64,000 nt of DNA from Ferrovibrio sp. MS7 (lineage in GTDB: Bacteria > Pseudomonadota > Alphaproteobacteria > Ferrovibrionales > Ferrovibrionaceae). Numbering within the stretch: the first letter of the stretch is position 1; each line of letters opens with the position of its first letter. Of this stretch, positions 42,575 to 63,222 are shown piece after piece. Location of the stretch: the NCBI RefSeq assembly GCF_038404985.1, contig NZ_JBBKBA010000001.1:1330001-1394000 (forward strand), read 5' to 3'. The notes beneath the pieces are model-generated. The model ran no database searches. It saw nothing but the letters and a program-made list of their open reading frames with translations, and had not been told where the DNA came from. The position numbers and the translations under genes are program-made.

Positions 42575-43642
42575 CTATTTCAAGGCGGCGGTGGAGGCGC
42601 GCGGGATCAGTGTGGGCCGCAGCATAACCCGTTGCGCCGGGTCGCCGGGCTGACCCTCCAATGCCGACAGCAGCAATTTAGCCGCATCCTGGCCCATCTC
42701 GCGTGGGCCGATCCGCACTGTGGTCAGTGGCGGGTCGATCATGTCGACCAGCGGCATGTCGTTATGCCCGACCACGGAGAGGTCGCCAGGGCAGGTAAGG
42801 CCGCGCGCGCGCAAGGCCCGCAGCAGGCCCAGTGCCAGCAGGTCGTTGGCGGCAACGATGGCGCTCAGCCTGGGCTTGATGTCCAGCAAGGCCGCAGCGG
42901 CGCTCTCGCCGGCCTCGCGTTCATAGGCCTTGGCCGTACTGATGCCGCCGGCCGGAATTTTCAGGCCATGGGCTTTCATCGCCGCTTCGAAACCCTGGCG
43001 CCGCAGATGCCCGGTGGAAAGATGCGCCGGGCCGGCGATATGGCCAATGCGGCGATGGCCCAGTGCCACCAGATGGTCCACCGCCAGCTTCATGCCATAC
43101 AGGTCGTCGCTCACCACCGCCGGCACGCGGCCTGACTCGTCGGCGCGGTTGACCAGCACCACCGGCAGGCGGGTTTCAAGGCAGTGACGCAGCACGGCAT
43201 CGTCGCGTCGCACGGTGGCGAGGATCAGGCCATCAACACGGCGGGCGATCAGTTCATCCACCAGCGCCGCCTGACGTTTCGGGTCGGAGCCGACATCGGC
43301 GACGATGGTGGAGTAGCCCTGGGCGTTGAGCGACTCGGAAACGCCGGAAATGATCGGTGAAAATACCGGATTGGCGATATCGGGCACCAGCACGCCGACT
43401 AGGCGCGAGCGCTTGGTGCGCAGGCTGGCGGCGGCGGCATCGCGGCGATAGCCGAGCCGGCGCGCCTCGGCCTCGATGCGGGCGGCAACTTCGGCGGCAA
43501 TCAGATGCCGCTTGGCCGGGTCCAGCGCGCGGGAGGCGGTGGAAAGATGCACGCCGGCTGCCGCCGCCACGGCTTTCAATGTGGCTGGCTTCACGGTGGT
43601 TGGCTGGCGGCTGGCGGTACGGGCAGGCGGACGATTCTGCAT
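42575..43642 (-). CDS. LacI-family transcriptional regulator
   Basis: A 355-residue LacI/GalR regulator: an N-terminal helix-turn-helix with hinge (ATLKAVAAAAGVHLSTASRALDP, then SRLVGVLVPDIANPVFSPI) and a periplasmic-binding-like domain. The 5' 20 residues form a basic extension. It is divergent from the intradiol dioxygenase gene, and two identical LacI-type palindromes sit in the intervening promoter, so it represses that operon with an unknown aromatic or ring-cleavage effector. Confidence 0.92.
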   Translation of the reverse strand: MQNRPPARTASRQPTTVKPATLKAVAAAAGVHLSTASRALDPAKRHLIAAEVAARIEAEARRLGYRRDAAAASLRTKRSRLVGVLVPDIANPVFSPIISGVSESLNAQGYSTIVADVGSDPKRQAALVDELIARRVDGLILATVRRDDAVLRHCLETRLPVVLVNRADESGRVPAVVSDDLYGMKLAVDHLVALGHRRIGHIAGPAHLSTGHLRRQGFEAAMKAHGLKIPAGGISTAKAYEREAGESAAAALLDIKPRLSAIVAANDLLALGLLRALRARGLTCPGDLSVVGHNDMPLVDMIDPPLTTVRIGPREMGQDAAKLLLSALEGQPGDPAQRVMLRPTLIPRASTAALK

Positions 43643-43663: not shown

Positions 43664-43692
43664 TTGACAACTGCAAACGATTGCAGTATGCA
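43664..43692 (+). promoter_or_regulatory. Predicted sigma-70 promoter of the intradiol dioxygenase operon
   Basis: TTGACA at 43664-43669 and TATGCA at 43687-43692 with a 17-base spacer. The first LacI operator fills the spacer and the second covers the -10 end and the likely start site, so occupancy would exclude RNA polymerase. The -10 is imperfect, consistent with a regulated promoter. Confidence 0.5.
43672..43685. promoter_or_regulatory. LacI-type operator O1, TGCAAACGATTGCA
   Basis: A dyad with arms TGCAA/TTGCA around a CG-containing centre, the pattern of LacI/GalR operators (compare GCAAACGTTTGC of PurR). It lies between the -35 and -10 elements of the operon promoter, next to the divergent LacI gene. 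Confidence 0.78.
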
Positions 43693-43702
43693 AACGATTG
43701 CA
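43689..43702. promoter_or_regulatory. LacI-type operator O2, TGCAAACGATTGCA
   Basis: Exact second copy of O1, same orientation, 17 bases downstream from start to start. The near two-turn helical spacing would let two dimers or one tetramer bind side by side and cover the -10 region. I found no further copy in the window. Confidence 0.78.
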
Positions 43703-43729: not shown

Positions 43730-44620
43730 GTGGTCATCGAGACAGAGCAGGATGTCACGCCCGCCGTTCTGGCCGCCATGGCCAATACGCCGGATGCGCG
43801 GCTGCGCGAAGTCATGGCGTCGCTGGTCAAGCATCTGCACGCCTTCGCGCGCGAGGTGAACCTCACCGAGCCGGAATGGGAACGCGGCATCGAATTCCTG
43901 ATTGGCCTCGGCAAGCTCACCAACGACAGCCATAACGAAGCCATCCTGGCCTCCGATGCCATCGGCTTTTCCACGCTGGTGTGCCTGCTGAACAACGGCA
44001 CGGTCGGCGACAGCGAAACCGCGGCGGCCTTGCTTGGGCCGTTCTGGCGCCTGAATGCACCCAAAACCGAATCCGGCGCCTCCATTGTACGTTCGCCAAC
44101 GCCGGGGCCGGCGTTGTTCGCCGATTGCCGGCTCCGCGACAATAGCGGCCGTCCGATTGCCGGCGCCTATGTCGATGTTTGGCATGCTTCGCCGGTCGGC
44201 ATGTATGAAAACCAGGATGCCGGCCAGGCAGACATGAATCTGCGCGGCAATTTCATCACCGATGCAGAAGGGCGTTTTTCCTTCCGCAGCGTGAAGCCTG
44301 CGGGCTATCCGGTGCCGGTGAGCGGCCCGGTGGGGGCATTACTGGCGGCGCAGCAGCGCCACCCTTATCGCCCGGCGCATCTGCATTTCCTGTTCCACAA
44401 GCCGGGCTACAAGACGCTGATCACTCAAGTCTTCGTGCAGGGCGATCCGTATCTCGAAAGCGATGTGGTTTTTGGCGTCACCAAGCCGCTGGTTGGTGAT
44501 TACCGCCTGCGCCGCGATACACCGCCTGCCGCTGATGTCAGTGGCGAGTGGTATTCGCTTGAGCATGAATTCGTCATGGAGCCCGGCGAAGCCGTGCTGC
44601 CCAACCCACCGATTAAGTAA
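43730..44620 (+). CDS. Intradiol dioxygenase, hydroxyquinol/catechol 1,2-dioxygenase-like
   Basis: A 296-residue intradiol ring-cleavage enzyme with an N-terminal helical Dioxygenase_N domain (residues about 20-90, REVMASLVKHLHAFAREVNLT split) and a C-terminal beta domain. Fe(III) ligands are visible: Tyr in PVGMYENQD, Tyr in AGYPVPVSGP, and two His in RPAHLHFLFHKPG. Size and layout fit hydroxyquinol 1,2-dioxygenase, which yields maleylacetate; a catechol substrate is possible. GTG 43730 follows AGAGGA. First gene of a LacI-controlled operon. Confidence 0.9.
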   Translation: MVIETEQDVTPAVLAAMANTPDARLREVMASLVKHLHAFAREVNLTEPEWERGIEFLIGLGKLTNDSHNEAILASDAIGFSTLVCLLNNGTVGDSETAAALLGPFWRLNAPKTESGASIVRSPTPGPALFADCRLRDNSGRPIAGAYVDVWHASPVGMYENQDAGQADMNLRGNFITDAEGRFSFRSVKPAGYPVPVSGPVGALLAAQQRHPYRPAHLHFLFHKPGYKTLITQVFVQGDPYLESDVVFGVTKPLVGDYRLRRDTPPAADVSGEWYSLEHEFVMEPGEAVLPNPPIK

Positions 44621-44646
44621 CGGCCGCCCATCAAGTGAAAGCATCC

Positions 44647-45408
44647 ATGTCCTCGATTCACTCCCTGAAAGACAAAGTCGCACTGATCATCGGTGGCACC
44701 GGCGGCATTGGCGCCGCCTCGGCCAAGCTGTTTGCCGAAGCTGGCGCCACCGTGATCGTCACCCACCGCGCTGGCGCCAAGGGCGAAGCAGCGGCGGCTG
44801 AATTGCTGAAAGGCCTGCCTGGCCAGGGACATTTCGCGCAAGCCGCCGATGTTATCGATACCGCCAGCCTGGTAGCGCTCCGCGATGTCGTGCAGGCGCG
44901 CTTCGGCAAACTGCATGTACTGGTGAACACTGCCGGTTTCACCAAACCGGTGGCGCATGGTGACCTTGATGCGCTGGATGATGAACTGATCGACCGCATG
45001 TTCGCGGTCAACTGGCGTGGCCAGTTCGCTGCTATCCGCAGTTTTGTGCCGCTGCTCAAGGCCAGCGGTGACGGCGTGATCGTGTCTATTTCCTCGATTG
45101 CCGGCGCCACCGGCAATGGCTCCAGCATCGCCTATTGTGCGGTAAAAGCCGGTATCGACGTGATGACCAAGTCGCTGGCCCGCGTACTGGCGCCGGAAGT
45201 GCGGGTGCTCGGCGTTGCGCCGGGCGTCGTCGATACCGGTTTCGTGCCGGGGCGTGGCGCCGAATTCAATGCCAAGACGGCTGCCACCACGCCGCTGAAG
45301 CGCGTTGCCTCGGCCGAGGATGTCGCCGCTGCCGTGCTGGCTTGCTGCACCCATCTCACTTTCTCGACCGGCACCACCCTGGTGGTGGATGGCGGTCGCA
45401 GCCTATAG
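44647..45408 (+). CDS. SDR-family oxidoreductase
   Basis: A 253-residue classical SDR: cofactor loop GGTGGIGAAS, NTAG at the usual NNAG place, Ser in SISSIAGA and the catalytic YCAVKAG. Most like 3-oxoacyl-ACP reductase-type or glucose dehydrogenase-type SDRs. ATG 44647 used; GTG 44635 is in frame upstream. Located between the ring-cleavage dioxygenase and BKACE, it probably oxidises or reduces an intermediate of the same pathway. Confidence 0.88.
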   Translation: MSSIHSLKDKVALIIGGTGGIGAASAKLFAEAGATVIVTHRAGAKGEAAAAELLKGLPGQGHFAQAADVIDTASLVALRDVVQARFGKLHVLVNTAGFTKPVAHGDLDALDDELIDRMFAVNWRGQFAAIRSFVPLLKASGDGVIVSISSIAGATGNGSSIAYCAVKAGIDVMTKSLARVLAPEVRVLGVAPGVVDTGFVPGRGAEFNAKTAATTPLKRVASAEDVAAAVLACCTHLTFSTGTTLVVDGGRSL

Positions 45409-45424
45409 CCCGAGGGAAACCGCC

Positions 45425-46345
45425 ATGCGTCCGACTCAGAACAAGGTCATCATCACCTGCGCGGTGACCGGCAACCAGACCAAGCCCGAACATACGCCGC
45501 ATCTGCCGATCACACCGGAACAGATCGCCGATGCCTGCCTGGGTGCTGCGGAAGCTGGTGCGGCCATCGTGCATATCCATGTGCGCCATCCCGATAATGG
45601 CCGGCCCTCGATGGAATTGGCGCATTACCGCGAGACGGTGGAGCGTATCCGCGCCAAGAACACTCAGCTTATTCTCAACCTCACCACCGGTCCTGGCGGC
45701 CGCTTCGTGCCCTCGGAAGATGATCCCAAGGTGGCCGCGCCGGGCACCACGTTGTGCCATCCACTCAAGCGCGTCGAGCATATCGAGGTGCTGCGCCCCG
45801 ATATCTGCACGCTGGACCTCAACACCATGAATTCCGGCAAGGAAGTGGTGATCAACACGCCCGGCAATGTGCGCAAGATGGCGGATGTGATGACCCGGGC
45901 CGGTGTAAAGCCGGAAATCGAACTGTTCGACTCCGGAGATATTGCGCTGATGAATGACATGCTTGCCGATGGTTCGCTGTCGGGCCCGATCCTGTGTTCC
46001 TTCGTGCTTGGCATCAAGTATGGCTTCCAGCCCAGCCCGGAAACCATCCTCTATGCCCGTGGCTTGCTGCCGCGCGATGCGCAGTTCACTGCCTTCGGTG
46101 TTGGCCGCCATGCCTTCCAGATGGCAGCGCAGAGCTACCTCGCCGGCGGCCATGTCCGTGTCGGCCTCGAGGATGCCATCATGCTCGACCGCACCACCCT
46201 GGCGCCGAGCAATGCCGCCATGGTGACCAAGGCGCGCCTGATCATCGAGAACATGGGCGGTCAGATCGCCACGCCGGAGGAAGCGCGCGAGATTGTCGGC
46301 CTGCCGACCCGTCTGAGTGGTTCCTCCTTCCGGGCGGCGGGCTGA
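45425..46345 (+). CDS. 3-keto-5-aminohexanoate cleavage enzyme family protein (BKACE)
   Basis: A 306-residue BKACE TIM barrel. The metal-binding H-x-H (IVHIHVRHPDNGRPS) is near residue 49, LTTGPGGRF near 86 and FVLGIKYGFQPSPETI near 200, with VGRHAFQMAAQSYLAGGHVRVGLED at the C-terminal side. BKACE enzymes react a beta-keto acid with acetyl-CoA to give acetoacetate and a shorter acyl-CoA. In an operon with an intradiol dioxygenase, maleylacetate or 3-oxoadipate is the natural candidate substrate, giving succinyl-CoA. ATG 45425 follows GAGGG. Confidence 0.9.
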   Translation: MRPTQNKVIITCAVTGNQTKPEHTPHLPITPEQIADACLGAAEAGAAIVHIHVRHPDNGRPSMELAHYRETVERIRAKNTQLILNLTTGPGGRFVPSEDDPKVAAPGTTLCHPLKRVEHIEVLRPDICTLDLNTMNSGKEVVINTPGNVRKMADVMTRAGVKPEIELFDSGDIALMNDMLADGSLSGPILCSFVLGIKYGFQPSPETILYARGLLPRDAQFTAFGVGRHAFQMAAQSYLAGGHVRVGLEDAIMLDRTTLAPSNAAMVTKARLIIENMGGQIATPEEAREIVGLPTRLSGSSFRAAG

Positions 46346-46349
46346 GGCC

Positions 46350-47381
46350 ATGAGTGCTGTGGCGGATACCAAGATGAAGGCGCGCGGGGATGTGCTGGCC
46401 CGTGCCTTGCGGCTGCATGAAAAAAGCGGCGAAGCGGCGAATATCCGCTTCACGCAAGAGGAAATTCCGCTGCGTATCGAGCGCGATGGCCAGGCCATCG
46501 TGCGGGTCACGGCGGCGGGTGTGAATCCTTCCGATGTGAAAGCAGCGATGGGCATGATGCCCTATGCCGTATTCCCGCGCACGCCAGGCCGCGATTTCGC
46601 CGGCGTGGTGGTGGCGGGGTCTGCCGACCTGATCGGCCAGGAAGTGTTCGGCACCGGTGGCGATGTTGGTATCCGGCGCGATGGCAGCCATGCTTCGCAT
46701 CTGCTGCTGGATAACGGTGCGCTGGCGCCGAAGCCGGCCAATCTGAGCGCTGTCGAGGCCGCCGGTATCGGCGTGCCCTTCGTCACCGCCTGGGAAGGTT
46801 TCCGCCGCGCTGGCATGCCGAAGCCCGGTGAGACTGTGCTGATCATGGGTGCCAATGGCAAAGTCGGCCAGGCCGCGATCCAGATCGCCACCCTGTGCGG
46901 CGCGCGGGTCATCGGCGTGGTGCGCAAGCCTGAAGGTTATCGCGGCCATGCCAATGCGCCAGTTGAGGTGCTGGATCATTCCGCTTGCGACGTGGCGGCG
47001 CGGGTGCGCGAACTGACCAATGGCAAAGGCGCGGACATTGTCTACAACACCGTCGGCGATCCGTATTACGCCGCGGCCACGGCGGCGCTGGCGCTGAAGG
47101 GTCGGCAGATCTTCATCGCGGCGGTGAAGAAGATCGTCGAATTCGACATCTTCGCCTTTTACCGCGGCCGCCACACCTATGTCGGCATCGATACGCTGGC
47201 CTTCACGGCGGTGGAATCGGCGGAACTGCTGCGCGAGATGGCGCCGCATTTCGCCAGCGGCAAGCTGAAGCCATTCCCGATTCACGCTGATTTCACCTAC
47301 CGCTTCAGCGCCGCCAAGGAAGCCTACATGACCGTGATTGGTTCCTCGCCCGAGCGCGTCGTGCTGGTGCCGGAGGAATAG
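46350..47381 (+). CDS. Zinc-free MDR-family alcohol dehydrogenase / enone reductase
   Basis: A 343-residue medium-chain reductase: GVNPSDVKAAMG near residue 60, FPRTPGRDFAGVVVAG, and the nucleotide loop MGANGKVGQ near 167-175. No zinc-binding Cys is visible. Such enzymes reduce alpha,beta-unsaturated ketones or quinones with NAD(P)H, so reduction of maleylacetate's double bond to 3-oxoadipate is conceivable, although the known maleylacetate reductases are iron-type enzymes. Four bases follow the BKACE stop. Confidence 0.87.
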   Translation: MSAVADTKMKARGDVLARALRLHEKSGEAANIRFTQEEIPLRIERDGQAIVRVTAAGVNPSDVKAAMGMMPYAVFPRTPGRDFAGVVVAGSADLIGQEVFGTGGDVGIRRDGSHASHLLLDNGALAPKPANLSAVEAAGIGVPFVTAWEGFRRAGMPKPGETVLIMGANGKVGQAAIQIATLCGARVIGVVRKPEGYRGHANAPVEVLDHSACDVAARVRELTNGKGADIVYNTVGDPYYAAATAALALKGRQIFIAAVKKIVEFDIFAFYRGRHTYVGIDTLAFTAVESAELLREMAPHFASGKLKPFPIHADFTYRFSAAKEAYMTVIGSSPERVVLVPEE

Positions 47382-47383
47382 CC

Positions 47384-47731
47384 ATGCATGTCACCCGTTT
47401 TGATAAGGCCAAGCCCTACGAGGCGCCGGGCCATTTCGACATGAAGATGTTTCGTCTCCAGGGCCGCGATGCCGGCCCGGCGGAAATGCTGTGGCTCGGC
47501 GTGTCGCATCTGCTGCCGGGCGGCCACACCACCTTCAACGCTTCACCGGAAGAGAAATTCTATGTCGTGCTCGATGGTGCCGTGACCATCGAATCCGATA
47601 CCGGCACGGAAACCCTGCTGCCCTGGGATTCCTGCCGCATCGCGCCGAACGAAAACCGCGCCTTGAAGAATAATACCAACAAGCCGGCAACCATCCTGCT
47701 GGCGATGCCCTTACCCAAACCCACACCTTGA
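47384..47731 (+). CDS. Small cupin-domain protein
   Basis: A 115-residue single cupin. The first motif LLPGGHTTFNASPEEKFYVVLDG and a second PWDSCRIAPNENRAL are present, but the metal-binding His set is partial, so it may be a non-metal binding or isomerase-type cupin. It starts 2 bases after the MDR stop and belongs to the operon. Function unknown; tautomerase/isomerase or effector binding are possible. Confidence 0.82.
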   Translation: MHVTRFDKAKPYEAPGHFDMKMFRLQGRDAGPAEMLWLGVSHLLPGGHTTFNASPEEKFYVVLDGAVTIESDTGTETLLPWDSCRIAPNENRALKNNTNKPATILLAMPLPKPTP

Positions 47732-47763
47732 AACCGAGCATAATAAAATAAGAGGAACGCCCA

Positions 47764-48780
47764 ATGATCACGATTAATCGTCGCCACCTGCTGCAAGCCA
47801 CCGCCGCCTCGGCCATGCTGGGTCTGCCGCATATCGCCCGCGCCCAGTCTTCCGAGGTGAAGATCGGCATCGGTTTCGGCATCGGCTTCCTGCCCACTTT
47901 CCTGCTGCGCGAATTGCAACTCGTCGAGAAGCACGCGAAGGCCCAGGGTATCGACCTGAAAGCCAGCTACCAGAGCTTTTCCGGCTCCGGCGCCATGCAG
48001 GATGCCGTGCTGTCCGGCTCGGTGGACTACGGCGTCTACGGCACTGCCGCGATGCTGATCGCCTGGGAGCGCGCCAAGGGCACGCCGCAGCAGATCTGGG
48101 GCGTCGCCGGTGTCACCACCCTGCCGCTGGTGCTGGTGACCAACAAGCCGAATGTGAAGAAGCTCGCTGATTTCGATGCAAAGGACCGCATCGCCATGCC
48201 GGCGCTGGTGTCGCCACAGATGTATGCCTTGCAGATCGCCGCCGAGAAGGAATTCGGCATCGGGCAGCATGACAAGCTGAAGCCGCAGGTGGTGGCGTTG
48301 CCGCATCCGGAAGCGCTGAACGCGGTGACTGGCGGTTCGACCGAAGTGACGGCCTATTTCTCTTCGGCGCCCTTCACTCAGGTGGCGCTGAAGAATCCGA
48401 AGATTTCCCGCGTCATGACGACGACGGACATCTATGGCGGTAAGTCCACCTTCCTCGCCATGGGTGCCACCAAGAAAACGCTGGATGCCAATCCGAAGAT
48501 GGCCGGCGTGATGGTGGCGGCGTTGTCTGAAGCCTCGCAGATCATTACGGGCGATCCGAAGCGCGCGGCCGAAATCTATCTCAAGGTCGAGCCGCAGAAG
48601 ACGATGAGCCTTGAGGATGTGCAGGCCCTGCTGGTCGAACTGAAGGACGAGTTCGATACCGGCGTCTACGGTATCAAGGCGGTGGCCGACTTCATGGGCC
48701 GCATCGGCCAGCTCAAGGCGCCGCCGGCCCGCTGGCAGGATGCCTATGCCCCGGCGCTGCATGGCCGCCAGGGTAGCTAG
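47764..48780 (+). CDS. ABC transporter substrate-binding protein, NitT/TauT (SsuA) family
   Basis: A 338-residue binding protein with a twin-arginine-like leader (MITINRRHLLQATAASAMLGLPHIARAQ). The mature part VKIGIGFGIGFLPTFLLRELQLVEKHA is of the NMT1-like/SsuA fold. AAGAGGA precedes the ATG. It belongs with the ATPase and permease that follow and likely imports the aromatic or acid substrate of the LacI operon; the ligand is unknown. Confidence 0.9.
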   Translation: MITINRRHLLQATAASAMLGLPHIARAQSSEVKIGIGFGIGFLPTFLLRELQLVEKHAKAQGIDLKASYQSFSGSGAMQDAVLSGSVDYGVYGTAAMLIAWERAKGTPQQIWGVAGVTTLPLVLVTNKPNVKKLADFDAKDRIAMPALVSPQMYALQIAAEKEFGIGQHDKLKPQVVALPHPEALNAVTGGSTEVTAYFSSAPFTQVALKNPKISRVMTTTDIYGGKSTFLAMGATKKTLDANPKMAGVMVAALSEASQIITGDPKRAAEIYLKVEPQKTMSLEDVQALLVELKDEFDTGVYGIKAVADFMGRIGQLKAPPARWQDAYAPALHGRQGS

Positions 48781-48798
48781 TCTTTAGGGGGAAGGAAC

Positions 48799-49608
48799 GT
48801 GGAAATGTCGCGGCCCGCGCTCGAGCAGGGAAATCTCGCCGGCAAGCCTCTGGTCGAGGTGGACGGTGTGACGTTGCAGTACAAGACGCCGGATTCTCTT
48901 ATCACCGCCACCTACCGGGTGTCGTTTGATATTCACCCCGGCGACCGCTTCGTCCTGCTCGGGCCTTCGGGCTGCGGCAAATCCACATTGCTCAAGACGC
49001 TCGCCGGCTTTCTCAAGCCGACCGAGGGCGAGATGCGGCTGAACGGCAAGGTGATCACCGAGCCGGGCCCAGACCGCATGATGGTGTTTCAGGAGTTCGA
49101 CCAGTTGCTGCCTTGGAAGACCGTGCAGCAGAACATCACCTTCCCGATGCTCAAGAATGGCGTGGCGCGGCACGAAGCAATGCAGCGTGCCAGCGATATC
49201 CTGGCCAAGGTGAACCTGTCGAAATTTGCCGATAGTTTTCCGCATATGTTGTCTGGCGGCATGAAGCAGCGCGTGGCGATTGCGCGCGCCATGGCGATGC
49301 GGCCGAAGCTGCTGCTGATGGATGAGCCCTATGCGGCGCTCGATGCGCTCACCCGGCGCAAGATGCAGGATGAATTGCTGCAGCTCTGGGATGATGTGCG
49401 CTTCACGCTGGTATTCGTTACCCACTCGATCGAGGAAGCGGTGATCCTCGGCAACCGCATCTGCGTGCTGTCGCCGCATCCCGGCCAGGTGCGCGCCGAA
49501 TTGAACAGCCACGCCTTCGGCCATGAGGATCGCGAGGGCGCCGGCTTCCACGAACTCTGTGGCAGCATCCGCCGCATGCTATTCGGCGACGGCGCCGTAT
49601 CGCACTGA
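48799..49608 (+). CDS. ABC transporter ATP-binding protein, NitT/TauT family
   Basis: A 269-residue ATPase: Walker A GPSGCGKST, signature LSGGMKQR, Walker B LLLMDEPYAALD, switch FVTHS. GTG 48799 (GGGGGA upstream) or ATG 48805 (AAGGA upstream, 8 bases) are both possible starts; the difference is two residues. Works with the permease at 49627. Confidence 0.92.
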   Translation: MEMSRPALEQGNLAGKPLVEVDGVTLQYKTPDSLITATYRVSFDIHPGDRFVLLGPSGCGKSTLLKTLAGFLKPTEGEMRLNGKVITEPGPDRMMVFQEFDQLLPWKTVQQNITFPMLKNGVARHEAMQRASDILAKVNLSKFADSFPHMLSGGMKQRVAIARAMAMRPKLLLMDEPYAALDALTRRKMQDELLQLWDDVRFTLVFVTHSIEEAVILGNRICVLSPHPGQVRAELNSHAFGHEDREGAGFHELCGSIRRMLFGDGAVSH

Positions 49609-49626
49609 ATATCCCCGGGGTTAATC

Positions 49627-50514
49627 ATGTCTGCTAACATTGCCAAACTTGAGCCGCCGATCCGGCCGGAATACGAACATCAGGGCCTGCCCGCTGCCGT
49701 GATCGGCGATATCGCCCGCCCGCTGCCACTCGGCGAACGCCTCTGGGGCTCCAGCACCTTCCGCAAGGCGGTGATCCTGGTGCTGCTGGCGCTGGCCTGG
49801 GAACTTTATGCCCGCTGGCTGCAGAACCCGCTCACCGTGCCGCCTTTCACCGCCACGCTGGAAGCATTATGGGAGGGTATCCAGTCCGGTGTCATCCCGG
49901 CGCGTCTCGCCGTCACGCTGCAGGTGCTGTTGATCGGCTATGGCCTGGGCGTGGTGCTGGCTTGCCTGTTCACCACGCTGGCAGTCTCCACCCGCATCGG
50001 CACCGACCTGCTCGCCACGCTGACGGCGATGCTGAACCCGTTGCCGGCCATCGCGCTGCTGCCGCTGGCCTTGCTGTGGTTCGGCTTGGGCACACCGTCG
50101 CTGGTCTTCGTCATTGTCAATTCCGTGCTCTGGGCGGTGGCGCTGAATGCCCATACCGGCTTTCTCTCGGTATCCGAGACCCTGCGCATGGCCGGCCAGA
50201 CCTTCGGCCTCAAGGGCCTGCGCTACATTCTGGAGATACTGATCCCGGCGGCCTTCCCTGCCATCCTCGCCGGGCTCAAGATCGGCTGGGCCTTCGCCTG
50301 GCGCACCCTGATCGCCGCCGAACTGGTTTTCGGCGTCTCCTCGGGCCGTGGCGGCCTTGGCTGGTTCATCTTCGAGAACCGTAATTTGCTCGACACGGCC
50401 TCGGTATTCGCCGGCCTGCTGACCGTGATGGCGGTGGGTCTGTTCGTCGATGGCGTGATCTTCCGCTTCATCGAGAACCGCACCGTGCGGCGCTGGGGCA
50501 TGCAGCGCGGCTAG
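49627..50514 (+). CDS. ABC transporter permease, NitT/TauT family
   Basis: A 295-residue permease with a hydrophilic N-terminal stretch of about 45 residues, six membrane segments and the EAA-type loop GLKGLRYILEILIPAAFPAILAGLK. The AELVFGVSSGRGGLGWFI segment is characteristic of this family. Last gene of the LacI operon, ending 94 bases before the PAS_5 gene. Confidence 0.92.
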   Translation: MSANIAKLEPPIRPEYEHQGLPAAVIGDIARPLPLGERLWGSSTFRKAVILVLLALAWELYARWLQNPLTVPPFTATLEALWEGIQSGVIPARLAVTLQVLLIGYGLGVVLACLFTTLAVSTRIGTDLLATLTAMLNPLPAIALLPLALLWFGLGTPSLVFVIVNSVLWAVALNAHTGFLSVSETLRMAGQTFGLKGLRYILEILIPAAFPAILAGLKIGWAFAWRTLIAAELVFGVSSGRGGLGWFIFENRNLLDTASVFAGLLTVMAVGLFVDGVIFRFIENRTVRRWGMQRG

Positions 50515-53124: not shown

Positions 53125-54042
53125 TCAGGGCAATTCCGCAGCCAGGCGGCGGAGCGTCTCGCGCAGGCGGTTCAGTGCCGCGCGCGGCAGGGTGTCGAAA
53201 CGCGTGGTGATGCCGACGGCACCGGTCGGCCGGTCGATGCTCACCGGCAGCAGGGCGAGCTGGCCTTCCTCCAGGTCGTCCAGCACCACGCCGCGCGAGA
53301 TGATCCATACCGCATCCGACATGCGGGTGTAGCGCCGGCCGAAACTCGGCGACACGGTCTCGATCGTGTCGGGCAACGCTGTCAGGCCATGGCCCAGCAT
53401 CAGGCGTTCGACATCGGGCCGGATGATCGAGCCCTGGATCGGGAACAGCACGGTATAGGCAGCAATGTCATGCAGGGTGACGGAACTCCGGTGTTGCAAA
53501 GGATGGCCCTGGCGCACCACGAACACGATTTCCTCGGAATAGAGCGGCTCGAAGGCCAGGCCCTGCATCATCGCCGGATCGGACAGCCGGCCGACCACGA
53601 TATCCAGGCTGCCTTCCTTCAGCCGCCCGAGCAGATAGTCATTCGGACCGGTGAGGACGCGGATGGTGGCGCGCAGGCCCTCGGCCTTGGCAGCGATCAC
53701 CGCCGCCGGCACCAGGCGGGTCGCCACTGTTGGCAGGGCGCCGATGGAAATAGTGGTGCCGCCATCGCGCTCGGCGCGGCCAACACTGTCCAGGCCTTCT
53801 TTCAGGGCGGCGAAGGCGGTGCCGGCATAGCGGCGGAATACCTCGCCACTGGCAGTGAGGAAAACGCCGCGCCGGCTGCGCTCGAGCAGTGGCGTGCCCA
53901 GGATGGCTTCCAGTTCGGCAATCGCCTTGGAAACCGCCGGCTGGGTCAGGCTGAGGCTGCGGGCGGCCTTGCCGAAACTCTTCTGTGCCGTCACTTCCAG
54001 GAAGCAGGCGAGATGGCGAAGCTTGATGCGTGGGTCGAGCAT
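53125..54042 (-). CDS. pcaQ: LysR-family regulator PcaQ
   Basis: A 305-residue LysR protein: MLDPRIKLRHLACFLEVTAQKSFGKAARSLSLTQPAVSKAIAELE (residues 1-45) is close to the N-terminus of PcaQ-type regulators, with VLFPIQGSIIRPDVERLMLGHG and RGVVLDDLEEGQLALLP in the effector domain. PcaQ activates protocatechuate genes with 3-carboxymuconolactone as co-inducer in Agrobacterium and Sinorhizobium. It is divergent from pcaC across about 106 bases, the usual arrangement. Confidence 0.9.
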   Translation of the reverse strand: MLDPRIKLRHLACFLEVTAQKSFGKAARSLSLTQPAVSKAIAELEAILGTPLLERSRRGVFLTASGEVFRRYAGTAFAALKEGLDSVGRAERDGGTTISIGALPTVATRLVPAAVIAAKAEGLRATIRVLTGPNDYLLGRLKEGSLDIVVGRLSDPAMMQGLAFEPLYSEEIVFVVRQGHPLQHRSSVTLHDIAAYTVLFPIQGSIIRPDVERLMLGHGLTALPDTIETVSPSFGRRYTRMSDAVWIISRGVVLDDLEEGQLALLPVSIDRPTGAVGITTRFDTLPRAALNRLRETLRRLAAELP

Positions 54043-54063
54043 AGGCTCTTATATATCGTTTTA

Positions 54064-54079
54064 GGCATGATAAAATGCC
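54064..54079. promoter_or_regulatory. Candidate PcaQ operator, GGCAT-N6-ATGCC
   Basis: A dyad with perfect 5-base arms in the pcaQ/pcaC intergenic region. The word GGCATGAT recurs at 54107-54114. The inner TAAAATG and CATTTTA (54071-54077, 54087-54093) give a second, overlapping 7-base inverted repeat. It does not match the ATAACC-N4-GGTTAA form I recall for Sinorhizobium PcaQ, so the exact site is uncertain. Confidence 0.4.
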
Positions 54080-54089
54080 AAAATATCAT

Positions 54090-54117
54090 TTTACATGTGA
54101 TTTTTCGGCATGATACT
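54090..54117 (+). promoter_or_regulatory. Predicted promoter of the pcaCHGBD operon
   Basis: TTTACA at 54090-54095 and GATACT at 54112-54117 with a 16-base spacer, about 31 bases before the pcaC ATG. The -35 is imperfect, as expected for a LysR-activated promoter, and the candidate PcaQ dyad lies just upstream. Confidence 0.38.
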
Positions 54118-54148
54118 CCCAGACTGAAGTCGCATGAGGGAGAAAAAC

Positions 54149-55281
<1,133 letters not shown>

Positions 55282-55283
55282 TC

Positions 55284-55904
55284 ATGGTGAGCTACCTGAA
55301 GGAAACCGCGTCGCAGACCGGTGGTCCCTACGTGCATATCGGCCTGATCCCGCGCCAGGCCGGTTTCGATATCTTCCAGAACAATTTCACCAATGTGGTG
55401 GCGCCGCCGGGCGTGCCGGGCGAGCGCATCATCATCGAGGGCCAAGTGCTGGATGGCGTTGGCGCCCAGGTGAAGGATGCACTGCTGGAAATCTGGCAGG
55501 CCGATGCCAAGGGCCGCTACAGCCACCCCCATGATGGCGATGGCAAGGCCGATTTCCGTGGCTGGGCCCGCACCGGCACCGATTTCAAGACCGGGCTCTA
55601 CCGTTTCGAGACGATCAAGCCCGGTACCATCGCCGATGCCGGCGGCTTCTGGCAGGGCCGCGCCATGGCGCCGCATGTGACGCTGTGGATCGCCGCGCGC
55701 GGCATCAATGTGGGGCTGCATACCCGGGCCTATTTCGCCGATGAGGCGGAAGCCAATGCCAAGGATCCGGTGCTGAACCTGGTGGAAAACCCCGAGCGGC
55801 GCAAAACCCTGGTGGCCGAGCGTTCGGTGCGCGATGGCGTGGCGGTCTACCGTTTCGACATCCGCCTGCAGGGGCCGGGCGAAACGGTGTTCTTCGACGC
55901 CTGA
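55284..55904 (+). CDS. pcaG: Protocatechuate 3,4-dioxygenase alpha subunit
   Basis: A 206-residue paralogue of PcaH without the iron-ligand Tyr and His set, as expected of the alpha subunit. TASQTGGPYVHIGLIPRQAGF and GRAMAPHVTLWIAARGINVGLHTRAYF are the usual landmarks. It assembles with PcaH into the protocatechuate dioxygenase. Two bases after the pcaH stop, so translationally coupled. Confidence 0.95.
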   Translation: MVSYLKETASQTGGPYVHIGLIPRQAGFDIFQNNFTNVVAPPGVPGERIIIEGQVLDGVGAQVKDALLEIWQADAKGRYSHPHDGDGKADFRGWARTGTDFKTGLYRFETIKPGTIADAGGFWQGRAMAPHVTLWIAARGINVGLHTRAYFADEAEANAKDPVLNLVENPERRKTLVAERSVRDGVAVYRFDIRLQGPGETVFFDA

Positions 55905-55925
55905 AGCAGGCATGATCGCAGCATC

Positions 55926-57275
55926 ATGACCAGCGATCCGCTCGACAGCCTCTTCACCACGCCAGACATGGCGGCGGTGTTCGCGCCCTCCACCCGCCTG
56001 CAGGCCATGCTGGATGTGGAGGCGGCACTGGCACGCGCCGAAGCAGCGGCGGGCGTGATTCCGGCGGAAGCCGTGAAGCCGATAGCCACGGCCTGCGATG
56101 CTGCCCTGTTCGACCTCGCGGCGCTTGGCCGTGCCGGGCGCCAGGCCGGCAATCTCGCCATCCCCATGGTGGCGGCGCTCACCGCCCGCGTAGCCGATGC
56201 CGCGCCGAAGGCGGCGGCCTGGGTGCATTGGGGAGCCACCAGCCAGGACATCATCGACAGCGGCCTGATGCTGCAACTGCGCGTGGCGCTGGCGCTGCTG
56301 GAAGCCGACATGGCGCGGCTCGACCGTAGCTTAGCCAAACTGGCGCGGCGTCATGCGAAAAGCGTGATGGTGGGGCGCACCTGGCTACAGCAGGCAGTGC
56401 CGGTGAGTTTCGGCCTCAAGGCCGCCGGCTGGCTGTCGGCACTCCGCCGCGACCGTCAGCGGTTGCATGAATTCAAGCCCCGCCTGCTGGTGCTGCAATT
56501 CGGCGGTGCTGCCGGCACGCTCGCCTCACTTGGCACCAAGGGCCCTGCCGTGGCGGCGAAATTGGCGCGTGAACTGCATCTCGGCCTGCCGGAACTGCCC
56601 TGGCACAGCCAGCGCGACCGTGTCGTCGAACTCGCCGCCTGGGGCGGGCTGCTCAGCGGCAATCTCGGCAAGATGGCGCGCGATATCTCGCTGCTGATGC
56701 AAAGCGAAGTGGCGGAAGTATTCGAGCCGGCGGGTGCCGGCAAGGGTGGTTCCTCAGCGATGCCGCAGAAGCGCAACCCGGTGGCCTGCGCCGCCGTACT
56801 GGCCAATGCGGCGCGCGTGCCGGGCCTGCTTGCCACGCTTTTCGCGGCAATGCCGCAAGAGCATGAGCGCGGCCTGGGTGGCTGGCAGGCGGAATGGCAG
56901 GTGCTGCCCGAATTGCTTGGTCTGGTTGCCGGTTCGCTCAGCGCCATGGCCGAAACCATCGAAGGCCTGGAAGTCGATCCTAAGCGCATGCGGCGCAATC
57001 TCGATGCCTCGAACGGTCTGGTGCTGGCGGAGGCCGCTTCCATCGCGCTTGGCCAGGCGATTGGCAAGGCGGCGGCGCATAAGCTGGTGAGTGATGCCAG
57101 CCGCCGTGCCGTGGCGGAATCCAGGCCGTTGCCTGATATTCTTGCTGCCATGCCGGAAGCGGCAGTGCATCTCGACCGTGCCGCGCTCAAGCGCGTGTTC
57201 GATCCCCTGCGCTACCTTGGCGCCAGCGACAAGTTCATTGCCGCCGCCCTGCGGCAGAAGGTGAAAGGACGTTGA
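55926..57275 (+). CDS. pcaB: 3-carboxy-cis,cis-muconate cycloisomerase
   Basis: A 449-residue fumarase/aspartase-superfamily enzyme with the signature GSSAMPQKRNP near residue 277 and the WVHWGATSQDIIDSG helix near 100. PcaB turns 3-carboxymuconate into 4-carboxymuconolactone; its C-terminal region distinguishes it from adenylosuccinate lyase. Third step of the branch, between PcaHG and PcaC. The start at 55926 (ATG) lies 21 bases after pcaG. Confidence 0.93.
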   Translation: MTSDPLDSLFTTPDMAAVFAPSTRLQAMLDVEAALARAEAAAGVIPAEAVKPIATACDAALFDLAALGRAGRQAGNLAIPMVAALTARVADAAPKAAAWVHWGATSQDIIDSGLMLQLRVALALLEADMARLDRSLAKLARRHAKSVMVGRTWLQQAVPVSFGLKAAGWLSALRRDRQRLHEFKPRLLVLQFGGAAGTLASLGTKGPAVAAKLARELHLGLPELPWHSQRDRVVELAAWGGLLSGNLGKMARDISLLMQSEVAEVFEPAGAGKGGSSAMPQKRNPVACAAVLANAARVPGLLATLFAAMPQEHERGLGGWQAEWQVLPELLGLVAGSLSAMAETIEGLEVDPKRMRRNLDASNGLVLAEAASIALGQAIGKAAAHKLVSDASRRAVAESRPLPDILAAMPEAAVHLDRAALKRVFDPLRYLGASDKFIAAALRQKVKGR

Positions 57276-57277
57276 CC

Positions 57278-58057
57278 ATGGCCGTGGCGCAGCTTGCCGA
57301 TGTCAGCCTGAATTATCGCCTGGATGGGCCGGAGGCGGCACCGGTGCTGCTGTTGTCGAATTCGCTTGGCACCGATCTGTCGCTGTGGGAGCCGCAGGTC
57401 AGCCCGTTGAGCCAGCGTTTCCGCCTGCTGCGCTACGATACGCGTGGCCATGGCGGTTCCGCCGCGACGCCGGGACCCTATACGCTGGATCAACTGGGCC
57501 GCGATGCCGTGGCTCTGCTCGATCATCTCGGCATCGCCAAGGCGCATGTTGCCGGTGTGTCGCTCGGTGGCATGACGGCGCAATGGCTGGCGATCAACGC
57601 GCCGGCGCGGGTGGAGAAGGTGGTGCCCTGCTTCACCTCGGCGCATATCGGCAATCCCGACATGTGGAACCAGCGCATCGCGGCGATCCAGGCCCAGGGC
57701 TTGGGCGCGGTGGTGGAGGGTGTGCTGGAGCGCTGGTTCACGCCGGCCTTTCACAAGAGCCGGCCGGATGAGATCGAGCGCTTTCGCAAGATGCTGCTGG
57801 GCATGCCGAAGGATGGCTATTGCGCGGCAGCCGCCGCCGTGCGCGACATGGACCTGCGGGGTCAGCTCGGCCGCATCGCCACGCCGACCTTGGTGATTGC
57901 CGGTCTGCATGACCTCTCAACGCCGCCGGCCCATGGCGAGGCGATTGCCGCTGGCATCAAGGGCGCGCGCTGCGAGAAGGTGGAGGCTGCGCATATCGGC
58001 AATGTCGAGGCGGCCGGCGCCGTCACCAAACTGCTGCTGGAATTCCTTAGCTCTTAG
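57278..58057 (+). CDS. pcaD: 3-oxoadipate enol-lactonase
   Basis: A 259-residue alpha/beta hydrolase: oxyanion region NSLGTDLSLW, nucleophile elbow GVSLGGM near residue 92, the acid in AGLHDLSTPP and the His in EAAHIGNVEA. It hydrolyses the enol-lactone to 3-oxoadipate. ATG 57278 is used because AAGGA stands 8 bases before it; TTG 57272 is closer. Last gene here; pcaI, pcaJ and pcaF for 3-oxoadipate are not in the window. Confidence 0.93.
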   Translation: MAVAQLADVSLNYRLDGPEAAPVLLLSNSLGTDLSLWEPQVSPLSQRFRLLRYDTRGHGGSAATPGPYTLDQLGRDAVALLDHLGIAKAHVAGVSLGGMTAQWLAINAPARVEKVVPCFTSAHIGNPDMWNQRIAAIQAQGLGAVVEGVLERWFTPAFHKSRPDEIERFRKMLLGMPKDGYCAAAAAVRDMDLRGQLGRIATPTLVIAGLHDLSTPPAHGEAIAAGIKGARCEKVEAAHIGNVEAAGAVTKLLLEFLSS

Positions 58058-59466: not shown

Positions 59467-59516
59467 CAATGGTAACCCGTGACCTACATACACAACGGGG
59501 CCAGAGGAGGAAACCG

Positions 59517-60344
59517 GTGAAAGCCCCATCATTCGGTTACGTAAAGGCGCGTGACCTCGGCCAGGTCTTTGACCTGCTGGAACAGCATGGCGACGACGCG
59601 CGCCTGCTGGCCGGCGGCCAGAGCCTGATGCCGTCGCTCAATCTGCGGCTGTCCAGCCCCGGCATCCTGATCGACCTCAACGGCCTCACCGACCTGGGCG
59701 GCATCACCGAAACCGCCACCCATCTGGTGATCGGCGCCATGACCCGCCATGTGGCGGTGGAAACCTCCGCCCTGGTGGCACGCCATGCGCCGCTGGTTTC
59801 CGCTGCCATGCCGCATATCGCCCATTCGGCGATCCGCAACCGTGGCACCATCGGCGGCAGCCTCTGCTTCGCCGATCCGGCCGCAGAACTGCCGGCCTGC
59901 ATGGTGGCGCTGCGCGCCACTTTCGTCGTGCAGGGCAGGGGCAGCGAACGCCGCGTCGCTGCGGCCGATTTCTTCCATGGCCTGTTCACGACCGCGCTGC
60001 AGCCCGGTGAAATCCTGCGCACCATCGAGATCCCGAAAGCCGCTGCCGATCACCGCTGCGCCTTCAACGAACTGGCACGGCGCCATGGCGATTATGCCGT
60101 GGTCGGTCTGGCCGCCGCCGCTGAAGCTGATTGGCTGAACCTGGTCTATTTCGCCGTGGGCGACCGTCCGATCAGCACGCCCAAGGCTGCTGCGGCGCTG
60201 CTGCGCGGCGATGTCGATGGCGCGGTGGCTGCCCTGCAAGGCGAACTTGAGCCCGATGGCGACCTCAATGCCCGCCCTGAAACCAAGCGGCATCTGGCCG
60301 GCGTGCTGTTGCGCCGCGCCGCCGCAGCCTTAAGCAAGGCATGA
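59517..60344 (+). CDS. Molybdenum hydroxylase FAD-binding (medium, CoxM-like) subunit
   Basis: A 275-residue FAD_binding_5 subunit: LLAGGQSLMPSLNLRL near residue 31 and SAIRNRGTIGGSLCFADPAAELPA near 103-125 are the two FAD-contacting motifs of this family. GTG 59517 is chosen because AGAGGAGG precedes it; the frame opens upstream without family sequence. Passes electrons from the 2Fe-2S subunit to FAD. First gene of a CoxMSL-type operon; the substrate is not known. Confidence 0.92.
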   Translation: MKAPSFGYVKARDLGQVFDLLEQHGDDARLLAGGQSLMPSLNLRLSSPGILIDLNGLTDLGGITETATHLVIGAMTRHVAVETSALVARHAPLVSAAMPHIAHSAIRNRGTIGGSLCFADPAAELPACMVALRATFVVQGRGSERRVAAADFFHGLFTTALQPGEILRTIEIPKAAADHRCAFNELARRHGDYAVVGLAAAAEADWLNLVYFAVGDRPISTPKAAAALLRGDVDGAVAALQGELEPDGDLNARPETKRHLAGVLLRRAAAALSKA

Positions 60345-60832
60345 GCATGGATCAGCACGACATCACCTTGACCGTGAATGGCCAGCGCGTGCAGCGTCGC
60401 GTGGCAGCGCGCATGCATCTGGTGGATTTCCTGCGCATCGAACTCGGTCTTACCGGTTCGCATCTCGGCTGCGAACATGGCGTCTGCGGCGCCTGCACCA
60501 TTCGCGTCGATGGCGTCGCGCTGCGCGGCTGCCTGCTGCTGGCGGCGCAGGCCGATGGCTGCAGCATCGAGACCATCGAGGGCCTGAGCGACAGCGGCGC
60601 CATTGCCGACCTGCAGGATTCGTTTCACCGCCACAATGCCTTGCAATGTGGCTTCTGCACGCCCGGCATGCTGGCCTCGGCGGCCGAACTGCTGGAACGC
60701 TGCCCTGATCCAAGCCGCGAACAGGTGCGCGAGCATATGTCAGGCAATTACTGCCGCTGCACCGGTTATCACGCCATTGTCGATGCTATTGTTGATGTCG
60801 CCGAGCAGCGGCGCAAGGGAGGCGCCGCATGA
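60341..60832 (+). CDS. Molybdenum hydroxylase [2Fe-2S] (small, CoxS-like) subunit
   Basis: A 163-residue iron-sulfur subunit with both clusters' cysteines: GCEHGVCGACTIRVDGVALRGCLL (plant-type ferredoxin part) and QCGFCTPGM...GNYCRCTGY (C-terminal cluster). Standard length. The ATG overlaps the CoxM stop by four bases. Confidence 0.95.
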   Translation: MSMDQHDITLTVNGQRVQRRVAARMHLVDFLRIELGLTGSHLGCEHGVCGACTIRVDGVALRGCLLLAAQADGCSIETIEGLSDSGAIADLQDSFHRHNALQCGFCTPGMLASAAELLERCPDPSREQVREHMSGNYCRCTGYHAIVDAIVDVAEQRRKGGAA

Positions 60833-63222
60833 GCAGCGAACCGCTTTCCATCTTCGACCGGCCGAACAGCTATATAGGCCGCACCGTGCCGCGTCCGAAT
60901 GCCAAGAAGCTGCTGCAGGGCCGTGGCACCTTCATCGACGATATCGTGCTGCCGCGCATGCTGCATGTGGTGTTCGTACGCAGCCCGCATGCCCATGCCC
61001 GGATCAAGGAGATCGACCGCGCCGCTGCCCAGGCCATGCCGGGCGTGGTGGCGGTGGTCACCGGCGCCGAGTTGGCTAAGGTCATCACGCCCTGGGTCGG
61101 CGTGTTGACGCATCTGAAGGGCCTGAAATCGGCGCCGCAGCATGCCATCGCGATTGACCGCGCCTGCTGGCAGGGCGAGGCGGTGGCCGCCGTGGTAGCG
61201 GAAACCCGCGCCCAGGCCGAGGATGCCGCCGAGCATGTCTTCGTCGACTGGGAGGAACTGCCCGCTGCCGTCGATATGGAAAAGGCGTTGGATGCCGATG
61301 GCGTGGTGATCCACCCTGAACTCGGCGACAACCTGGCTTTCCGCCGCGAACTGACCGTTGGCGACCCCGATGCCGCCTTTGCTGCCGCGCATCTGGTGGT
61401 GGAGGAAACCTTCCATACCGGCCGTCATACCGGTGTTTGCCTTGAGCCGCGCGCCATCCTGGCGGATTTCCAGCCCGGCGAGGGCAAGCTGGTTGCCTAC
61501 CACGCGACGCAAGCGCCGCACATGATCCAGAATCTGCTCGCCAAGCACCTCAGCCTGGACGAAGCGGATGTGCGAGTGATCTGCAAGGATATCGGCGGTT
61601 CTTTCGGCATCAAGGTGCATGTCTATGCCGACGAGATGGCGACCGCTGCGCTGGCGGTGCTGCTGAAGCGGCCGGTGAAGTTCATCGCCGACCGGCTGGA
61701 ATCCTTCGTCACCGACATTCATGCCCGGGATCACCGCATCAAGGGCCGCATCGCGGTATCCAAGGAGGGCGACATCCTGGCCTTCGAGATCGATGACCGC
61801 ACCGGCATCGGTCCTTATTCGGTTTATCCGCGCACTAGCGCCATCGAGGCCAATCAGGTGGTGAACCTGATCGGCGGGCCCTACAAGCACAAGAATTACC
61901 GCGCCAAGGCGGAAGTGGTGTTCCAGAACAAGAATGTGATGTGCCAGTACCGCGCGGTCGGCCATCCCATCGCTTGCGCGGTCACCGAAGGCCTGGTTGA
62001 TCTAGCTGCGCAGAAACTGGGCATGGACCCGGTGGAACTCCGCCGCCGCAATCTGATCCCGGACGACGCTTATCCCTATACCGGCCTTGCCGGCCTGCCT
62101 TACGAGGACCTCTCGCATCATGCGGCTTTGGATAAGCTGCTAGCGATGATGGATTACAAGGCGCTGCGGGCCGAGCAGGCGGAACTGCGCAAGCGCGGCA
62201 TTCATCGCGGCATCGGCTTTGCCAGCTTCATCGAGGTGACCAATCCTTCCGCTGCCTTCTACGGTGTCGGCGGCGCGCGAATCTCCTCGCAGGATGGCTG
62301 CACGATCCGCCTCGATCCCACCGGCACGATTACGTGCGCCACTGGCGTCACCGAACAGGGCCAGGGCACCGAAGCGATCATTGCTCAGGTGGCGGCGACC
62401 GCTGTCGGCGTCGATATCGCCAAGGTGCGGGTGATCACCGGCGATACCGAGATCACGCCCTATGGTGGCGGCACCTGGGCCTCACGCGGCGCCGGCATCG
62501 GCGGCGAAGCGGCGCTCCAGGCCGGCAAGGCACTGAAGCAGAATATCCTTGTTGTTGCCGGCGCCATGCTGCAGGCGGCGCCAGAAACCCTGGACCTGCG
62601 CATGGGCAAGATCGTCGATGCCGATACCGGCGCTGAACGCCTGGCGCTGGATGAACTGGGCCGTGTTGCTTATTTCCGCCCGGATACGCTGCCCAAGGGG
62701 TTGCAGCCAGAATTCGTGGTGACGCGCCATTATGTGCAGAAGGATTTCCCCTTCGTTTTCACCAATGGCATCCAGGCCAGCTATCTCGAAGTGGACACCG
62801 ATACCGGCTTCGTGAAGCTGCTGAAGCATTGGTGCGTCGAGGATTGTGGCACCATCATCAACCCGCAGCTGGTCGACGAACAGGTGCGCGGCGGTGTGGT
62901 GCAGGGTCTTGGCGCGGCGCTTTTCGAGGAATGTATCTACGATGATCGCGGCCAGCTCGTGAATGGCTCGATGATCGACTATCTGGTGCCGATGGCTGGT
63001 GAGATGCCGGATATCGAAGTCGGCCATGTGGTCTCGCCGACCCGTTCATCTGAACTTGGCGCCAAGGGCGCGGGCGAGGCCGGCACCGCCGGTGCGCCAG
63101 CCGTGGTGATGAATGCCATCAATGATGCCCTGCATCCCTTCAATGCCCGCGTGCTGGCGCAGCCCTTCACGCCGGAGCGGATTCTTCAAGCCTTGGGCCG
63201 GGTGCAAGCGGCCGCCGAATAG
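60829..63222 (+). CDS. Molybdenum hydroxylase large (CoxL/xanthine dehydrogenase-like) subunit
   Basis: A 797-residue Mo-cofactor-binding subunit. N-terminal Ald_Xan_dh_C (LQGRGTFIDDIVLP), then GGSFGIKVH near residue 258, and the catalytic Glu in GAKGAGEAGTAG near 748. The active-site loop reads QYRAVGHPIACAVTE near residue 373, unlike the AYXCSFR of CO dehydrogenase and unlike AYRGAGRPE of form II aldehyde/CoxL-like enzymes. It hydroxylates an unknown N-heterocycle or aldehyde. Co-translated with the small subunit. Confidence 0.92.
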   Translation: MSSEPLSIFDRPNSYIGRTVPRPNAKKLLQGRGTFIDDIVLPRMLHVVFVRSPHAHARIKEIDRAAAQAMPGVVAVVTGAELAKVITPWVGVLTHLKGLKSAPQHAIAIDRACWQGEAVAAVVAETRAQAEDAAEHVFVDWEELPAAVDMEKALDADGVVIHPELGDNLAFRRELTVGDPDAAFAAAHLVVEETFHTGRHTGVCLEPRAILADFQPGEGKLVAYHATQAPHMIQNLLAKHLSLDEADVRVICKDIGGSFGIKVHVYADEMATAALAVLLKRPVKFIADRLESFVTDIHARDHRIKGRIAVSKEGDILAFEIDDRTGIGPYSVYPRTSAIEANQVVNLIGGPYKHKNYRAKAEVVFQNKNVMCQYRAVGHPIACAVTEGLVDLAAQKLGMDPVELRRRNLIPDDAYPYTGLAGLPYEDLSHHAALDKLLAMMDYKALRAEQAELRKRGIHRGIGFASFIEVTNPSAAFYGVGGARISSQDGCTIRLDPTGTITCATGVTEQGQGTEAIIAQVAATAVGVDIAKVRVITGDTEITPYGGGTWASRGAGIGGEAALQAGKALKQNILVVAGAMLQAAPETLDLRMGKIVDADTGAERLALDELGRVAYFRPDTLPKGLQPEFVVTRHYVQKDFPFVFTNGIQASYLEVDTDTGFVKLLKHWCVEDCGTIINPQLVDEQVRGGVVQGLGAALFEECIYDDRGQLVNGSMIDYLVPMAGEMPDIEVGHVVSPTRSSELGAKGAGEAGTAGAPAVVMNAINDALHPFNARVLAQPFTPERILQALGRVQAAAE

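Follow-up and report, generated by a model that had tools for sequence, protein, structure and literature searches.

A conserved dioxygenase-BKACE operon in Ferrovibrio sp. MS7 and its possible role in the catabolism of hydroxyquinol-type compounds

The operon and its relatives

The stretch of DNA analysed here, which we call the window, comprises 64,000 nucleotides of Ferrovibrio sp. MS7 (contig NZ_JBBKBA010000001.1, positions 1,330,001 to 1,394,000). It contains an operon in which an intradiol dioxygenase (IDO) is encoded together with a BKACE, a member of the DUF849 family. An earlier note on this DNA had described a LacI-controlled run of an IDO, a short-chain dehydrogenase/reductase (SDR), a BKACE, a zinc-free MDR, a cupin and an ABC importer, and had suggested from it a route through 3-oxoadipate that dispenses with a CoA-transferase. 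The gene set is real and constitutes one operon: eight plus-strand genes lie in a single run with intergenic gaps of 2-32 bases, and the LacI gene is divergent from them. The LacI gene falls just beyond the edge of 43730-50514, the span over which the run had been drawn. In window positions the features are as follows.

42575..43642, minus strand: LacI-family regulator (Peripla_BP_3, 146 bits; LacI HTH, 24.1 bits, slightly under its cut-off of 27)
43664..43692, plus strand: promoter-like hexamers read by eye, TTGACA (43664-43669) and TATGCA (43687-43692), with a spacer of 17 bases
43672..43685, no strand: putative operator copy 1, a palindrome, TGCAAACGATTGCA, inside the promoter spacer
43689..43702, no strand: putative operator copy 2, the same palindrome, TGCAAACGATTGCA, after the spacer and overlapping the -10-like hexamer
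43730..44620, plus strand: IDO, apparently of the hydroxyquinol 1,2-dioxygenase type (PF00775 and PF04444 above cut-off)
44635..45408, plus strand: SDR (PF13561, 157 bits)
45425..46345, plus strand: BKACE (DUF849) of a BsfD-like subfamily (PF05853, 317.6 bits, cut-off 24.8)
about 46350..47381, plus strand: zinc-free MDR, quinone/enone-reductase-like (PF00107 and PF08240 above cut-off); an alternative upstream start, GTG at 46317, would overlap the BKACE gene
47384..47731, plus strand: single-domain cupin (PF07883, 27.9 bits, cut-off 27.2)
47764..48780, plus strand: NMT1/SsuA-like periplasmic binding protein (PF13379 and PF09084 above cut-off)
48799..49608, plus strand: ABC transporter ATPase (PF00005)
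49627..50514, plus strand: ABC transporter permease (PF00528)

The operon is present in many soil alphaproteobacteria, Xanthobacter and Bradyrhizobium among them, and is kept among near relatives. Eight aligned IDOs served as the query for a scan of genome contigs, from which the best 80 of 559 relatives were retained. Together with 7 of 12 further neighbourhoods they make up 87 IDO-centred loci, so that the fractions given here are valid for near relatives only. The remaining five neighbourhoods (L069-L073), which gave no BKACE match, had been set aside beforehand, and one contig enters the total twice, as L062 and L126. Since the gene caller mis-frames some genes, presence was scored by tblastn, at an identity of at least 45% in general and 55% for IDO and BKACE. 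Many of the operon-bearing genomes are closely related to each other. An IDO and a BKACE more than 55% identical to that of the window occur together in 44 of the 87 loci and are co-stranded in all 43 loci where this was measured, which makes the pairing more than chance. Among these 44 loci an SDR was found in 41, an MDR in 42, a cupin in 31 and a LacI gene in 32, with some contigs ending early. The smallest set kept, in L074, L075 and L110, is IDO, BKACE and MDR.

Transport is more variable. The importer of the window's own type is complete in only five of the 44 loci, and other loci have different transporter genes nearby (named by eye, except for an MFS protein). A constant enzyme core with changing transporters suggests a single class of substrate. 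Accessory genes also vary between loci and include PRK08204-subfamily amidohydrolases, RidA-family proteins and the MFS transporter, whose top model is an aromatic-acid symporter with a score under the cut-off of that model; as a group they point to no substrate. Beside the operon at L108:15482-20887, and at L081:16472-19857 onward, an amidohydrolase from the PRK08204-like cluster occurs with a gene resembling hydroxyacid dehydrogenases. Reading frames resembling molybdenum hydroxylases near L067 and L109 give piecemeal matches only and may be mis-called. In one of the 44 loci, L094, a CoA-transferase gene of the ScoB/PcaJ family lies downstream of the operon, which would fit a use of acetoacetate.

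Operators and regulation

Of the 32 BKACE loci with a LacI gene, 26 have it divergent and within 800 bases, and with the window they give 27 operator regions. A palindrome with a central CG and at most one mismatched pair is found in all 27 of these divergent LacI-IDO regions, a loose count made with no control. The perfect palindrome is found in 15 of the 27; in 200 base shuffles it turned up in 0.055 regions on average and in 2 at most. In the genome of strain MS7 the only sites with zero mismatches are the two copies between LacI and IDO. Two more sites have one mismatch; the genes near them are apparently unrelated.

Relatives give a similar picture. For 26 named operon loci, 24 genomes were examined, and 13 of them contain the exact consensus, TGCAATCGATTGCA, with 16 copies in all. 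It lies immediately upstream of the IDO gene in 15 of the 16 cases; the remaining copy, in a Bosea, is beside the LacI gene that belongs to the locus. A reversed control pattern has no occurrence in these 24 operon-bearing genomes. The regulon thus looks confined to its own locus, and it is likely that the operon is repressed by its own LacI protein. If correct, few further enzymes should be required to bring the imported compound to ring cleavage, and the operon with its transporter should suffice. A dispersed regulon that would name an upstream enzyme was also considered and is rejected for now, the sites found being local.

The dioxygenase and the BKACE

Assignment of the IDO to the hydroxyquinol type, as originally proposed, is supported by its nearest structures and by its active-site residues. 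Of the five solved structures closest to it, three carry the name of a hydroxyquinol or chlorohydroxyquinol dioxygenase; PnpC (3N9T), which we take to be of hydroxyquinol type, is a fourth, and the fifth is unnamed. Alignment to 1TMX gives Y159, Y193, H217 and H219 as the iron ligands, and these two tyrosines and two histidines are kept in the window IDO and in 85 of 85 aligned relatives. Four residues of 1TMX that presumably shape the substrate, Leu80, Asp83, Arg218 and Val251, correspond to L73, D76, R214 and V247. All 43 relatives that come from BKACE loci have both D76 and V247. Among 42 relatives without a BKACE, 31 carry Gly and Gln at these two positions and 11 keep the Asp. L067 and L068, with an IDO identity below 55%, were omitted from this table; both show Asp in the alignment. 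Several loci without a BKACE (L101, L122, L130, L133 and similar) have their Gly/Gln-type IDO near genes that by eye resemble uvrC, pgsA and moaE, and in L066, L148 and L153, from Bradyrhizobium-like genomes, a Gly-type IDO adjoins pcaF and pcaHG.

In the BKACE, alignment places the zinc ligands at H50, H52 and E249 and the catalytic Glu at E166. The Glu that PMC11961710 names as the base of PdKce is kept. Among solved chains BsfD (9ZSC) is the most similar in sequence, with 158 of 286 aligned residues identical (55%), while 3C6C, Kce and PdKce are further off. According to PMC12871164, BsfD acetylates a phosphono-beta-keto acid, from which CO2 is then lost, and this chemistry is partly tied to Phe166, which replaces a Tyr; Arg91, in an inserted loop, lies near the phosphonate. 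The window enzyme keeps both residues, as Phe168 and Arg93, the latter in the loop that in BsfD holds the distal acid. A predicted structure of the window BKACE has a mean pLDDT of 84.4, falling to about 50 in residues 91-110, the Arg93 loop. It matches DUF849 structures, 3C6C first, and 9ZSC is not among the Foldseek matches listed. In a BKACE tree of 55 rows, a clade of 46 rows (support 100/95) contains all 43 operon rows, two rows without an IDO, and BsfD, which stands beside the operon BKACE of L067 (L067:6564-7439; 98/88) on a long branch.

The 55% identity, the shared Phe and Arg, and the place of BsfD inside the operon clade raise the possibility that the window BKACE works as BsfD does: it would acetylate and decarboxylate a beta-keto acid and so make a beta-diketone for the SDR or MDR. 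We regard this as decidedly improbable. Spending acetyl-CoA on a diketone would be odd for a catabolic operon, and the branch leading to BsfD is long. The Phe is also a poor guide. PMC12871164 describes the active-site Tyr (Tyr145 of Kce, Tyr173 of PdKce) as present in all BKACEs, but the window enzyme has Phe168 instead, and so does BKACE2 of the same genome, which scores above the curated cut-off for 3-oxoadipate enzymes. Hence the Tyr does not look universal, and Phe alone is no proof of BsfD chemistry.

Some relatives of the BKACE are found apart from the dioxygenase. In two genomes of the same genus, G203 and G373, there is a BKACE with 74-75% identity to that of the window and no IDO at E 1e-40; both BKACE rows nest inside the operon clade. 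In G203 (L154:9323-13424) the gene is accompanied by those of a TctC-type binding protein, an SDR 48% identical to the window's and an aldehyde dehydrogenase, and in G373 the contig stops within the BKACE gene. Of the nine BKACE stretches that lack an IDO, four have an SDR match of 30-48% within about 2 kb of the BKACE, and in a fifth a weaker match (29%) is found at a distance of about 2 kb. It might be, then, that the IDO acts on a catechol unrelated to hydroxyquinol and that BKACE and SDR form an independent module for a beta-hydroxy or beta-keto acid. Where an IDO is present, however, the genes are strictly co-linear and the operator is local, which argues against this, as do the hydroxyquinol-type residues of the IDO, and we think it quite unlikely.

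The other enzymes are less informative. The description of the MDR as zinc-free is right, as its 343 residues include only two cysteines, at 183 and 213; its top match in the PDB is 3gaz, followed by the quinone oxidoreductase 1yb5. For the SDR, none of the 25 best NCBIfam models reaches its cut-off and no solved relative matches at 1e-40. The cupin has no close solved relative either, the best match having an E value of 0.00016.

Possible routes and known systems

How might these genes work together? We put about even confidence in the idea that the operon is catabolic and self-contained, is repressed by its LacI protein and serves an imported compound of hydroxyquinol type, whose degradation would end in an acyl exchange between the BKACE substrate and acetyl-CoA. 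The substrate, the order of steps, the repression and acetoacetate as a product are what we infer; the observations behind them are the genes, their conservation, the active-site residues, and the sequence and local occurrence of the operator. An aromatic acid or an alicyclic precursor would be imported and give rise to a hydroxyquinol-type (1,2,4-trihydroxylated) catechol. The IDO would open the ring between adjacent hydroxyls to yield a maleylacetate-like beta-keto diacid. The MDR probably saturates the double bond, or else keeps a quinone reduced, and the SDR may adjust an alcohol or keto group. In the BKACE step, an exchange between the beta-keto acid and acetyl-CoA would produce acetoacetate plus a shortened acyl-CoA, namely succinyl-CoA in the case of a reduced, unsubstituted substrate. 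That the exact operator lies so consistently upstream of the IDO gene agrees with an operon that suffices with its transporter.

Several points weigh against this interpretation. No hydroxylase or decarboxylase that would make hydroxyquinol was recognised in the window operon. The split between Asp and Gly at the D76 position is a single change on the IDO tree, where only one independent pair is possible, so that the association of D76 with BKACE marks a clade and is not a repeated coupling. The G203 and G373 genes indicate that the BKACE can work without this dioxygenase, and by sequence the BKACE most resembles BsfD, whose reaction is an acetylation with decarboxylation rather than a cleavage. 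Finally, 11 of the 24 operon genomes have no exact operator copy; degenerate sites were not searched there.

A more specific form of the same catabolic scheme can be suggested, although we hold it tentatively and doubt it more than we believe it. A substituted hydroxyquinol would be opened to an unsaturated beta-keto diacid, on which the BsfD-like BKACE would carry out CoA activation, chain cleavage and acetoacetate formation in one step, and BsfD itself would have been recruited from this catabolic clade.

The route first proposed for the locus was more definite: hydroxyquinol to maleylacetate, its reduction by MDR or SDR to 3-oxoadipate, from which BKACE would make succinyl-CoA and acetoacetate and so stand in for PcaIJ and PcaF. 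As a general idea a route free of CoA-transferase is plausible; this particular version of it is not established, and we consider it unlikely. In its favour are the hydroxyquinol type of the IDO and the minimal IDO, BKACE and MDR set of L074, L075 and L110. The iron-type dehydrogenases of the genome are only 26-30% identical to the genes in related loci that by eye resemble maleylacetate reductase. The BKACE keeps its zinc and base residues and Arg93, and PMC4922564 lists beta-ketoadipate under group G3 of the BKACEs and substrates with a negative charge under G4, the window enzyme not being placed in a group. A role for SDR or MDR in reducing maleylacetate is, however, unsupported: the SDR is absent from three of the 44 loci, and an SDR accompanies a nested BKACE relative that has no IDO. 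Next to the operon, L081 and L108 have another dioxygenase (42-45% identical to the window IDO) and an iron-type dehydrogenase that by eye resembles maleylacetate reductase. Plain hydroxyquinol may already be served there, which suggests another substrate for the IDO.

The BKACE itself scores 179.8 bits on NF053568, the model for 3-oxoadipate:acetyl-CoA acetyltransferase, where the cut-off is 350. We therefore rejected it as an enzyme of the curated 3-oxoadipate type, even though so low a score is compatible with activity on 3-oxoadipate. The genome has three BKACE genes in total, and a different one, BKACE2, at C2:192263-193069 (L012:9252-10088), reaches 475.3 bits and is the likelier 3-oxoadipate BKACE of this organism.

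The absence of PcaIJ and PcaF, part of the original argument, is consistent with the window and fails for the genome. A search of the whole genome found PcaF (727.9 bits, cut-off 597) and a CoA-transferase pair above the PcaI/ScoA and PcaJ/ScoB subfamily cut-offs, subfamilies that do not separate PcaIJ from ScoAB. Since these genes and the NF053568-type BKACE are present elsewhere, the operon is not the sole route through 3-oxoadipate in this genome. Nor do operon carriers generally lack the thiolase, another idea that we rejected: a PcaF match (E 1e-150) is found in 22 of the 24 genomes, above cut-off in 21. An NF053568 BKACE above cut-off is present in nine of the 24, as well as in strain MS7. 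Each of the two genomes in which PcaF had no match (Bosea G385 and G401) has one. They are candidates for a thiolase-free 3-oxoadipate route and fit the proposal made for Methylobacterium (see below) better than the operon does.

The window also contains, about 2.6 kb downstream of the operon, pcaQ, pcaC, pcaH, pcaG, pcaB and pcaD (53125-58057), each above its NCBIfam cut-off; this cluster makes 3-oxoadipate. Downstream of it, at 59469-63222, are three genes for a molybdenum hydroxylase of the CO-dehydrogenase type.

If the catabolic reading is true, the operon would represent a lower route of aromatic ring cleavage independent of CoA-transferase and thiolase, in a branch other than the protocatechuate one, for which such a route was suggested before. 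It would also provide a substrate class for the BKACE subfamily nearest to BsfD, and it would define a local regulon, in rhizobia and related bacteria, with an inducer that a simple reporter could reveal. Judged by titles and the openings of abstracts, we found no paper that joins a hydroxyquinol-type dioxygenase with a BKACE.

We know several systems with which the operon can be compared. Hydroxyquinol 1,2-dioxygenases (1TMX, 8R2X) share with the IDO the fold family, the iron ligands and the equivalents of Asp83 and Val251. They differ from it at Phe108 and Val107 of 1TMX, which are Leu102 and Leu101 in the window IDO, and hydroxyquinol 1,2-dioxygenase systems differ from the operon in that the latter has no iron-type dehydrogenase. 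The curated 3-oxoadipate enzymes of NF053568 belong to the same BKACE superfamily as the window enzyme. BsfD is alike in its zinc ligands as well as in the features described above; its setting is different, being the phosphonate biosynthesis of flavophos, with acetyl transfer and decarboxylation, and the available part of PMC12871164 mentions no dioxygenase partner. A parallel to the operon as a whole is in Methylobacterium. According to PMC8963497 and PMC12379598, a DUF849 gene replaces pcaIJF in the pca clusters of that genus, and a BKACE was proposed to end the protocatechuate route; both papers rest on Bastard et al. 2014. Those clusters belong to the protocatechuate branch and their BKACE is called G4 (PMC8963497), whereas the window has a hydroxyquinol-type dioxygenase and a BsfD-like BKACE, in a genome that has PcaF and PcaIJ/ScoAB elsewhere. 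What the two have in common is a BKACE proposed as the terminus of ring cleavage, in a cluster without CoA-transferase or thiolase.

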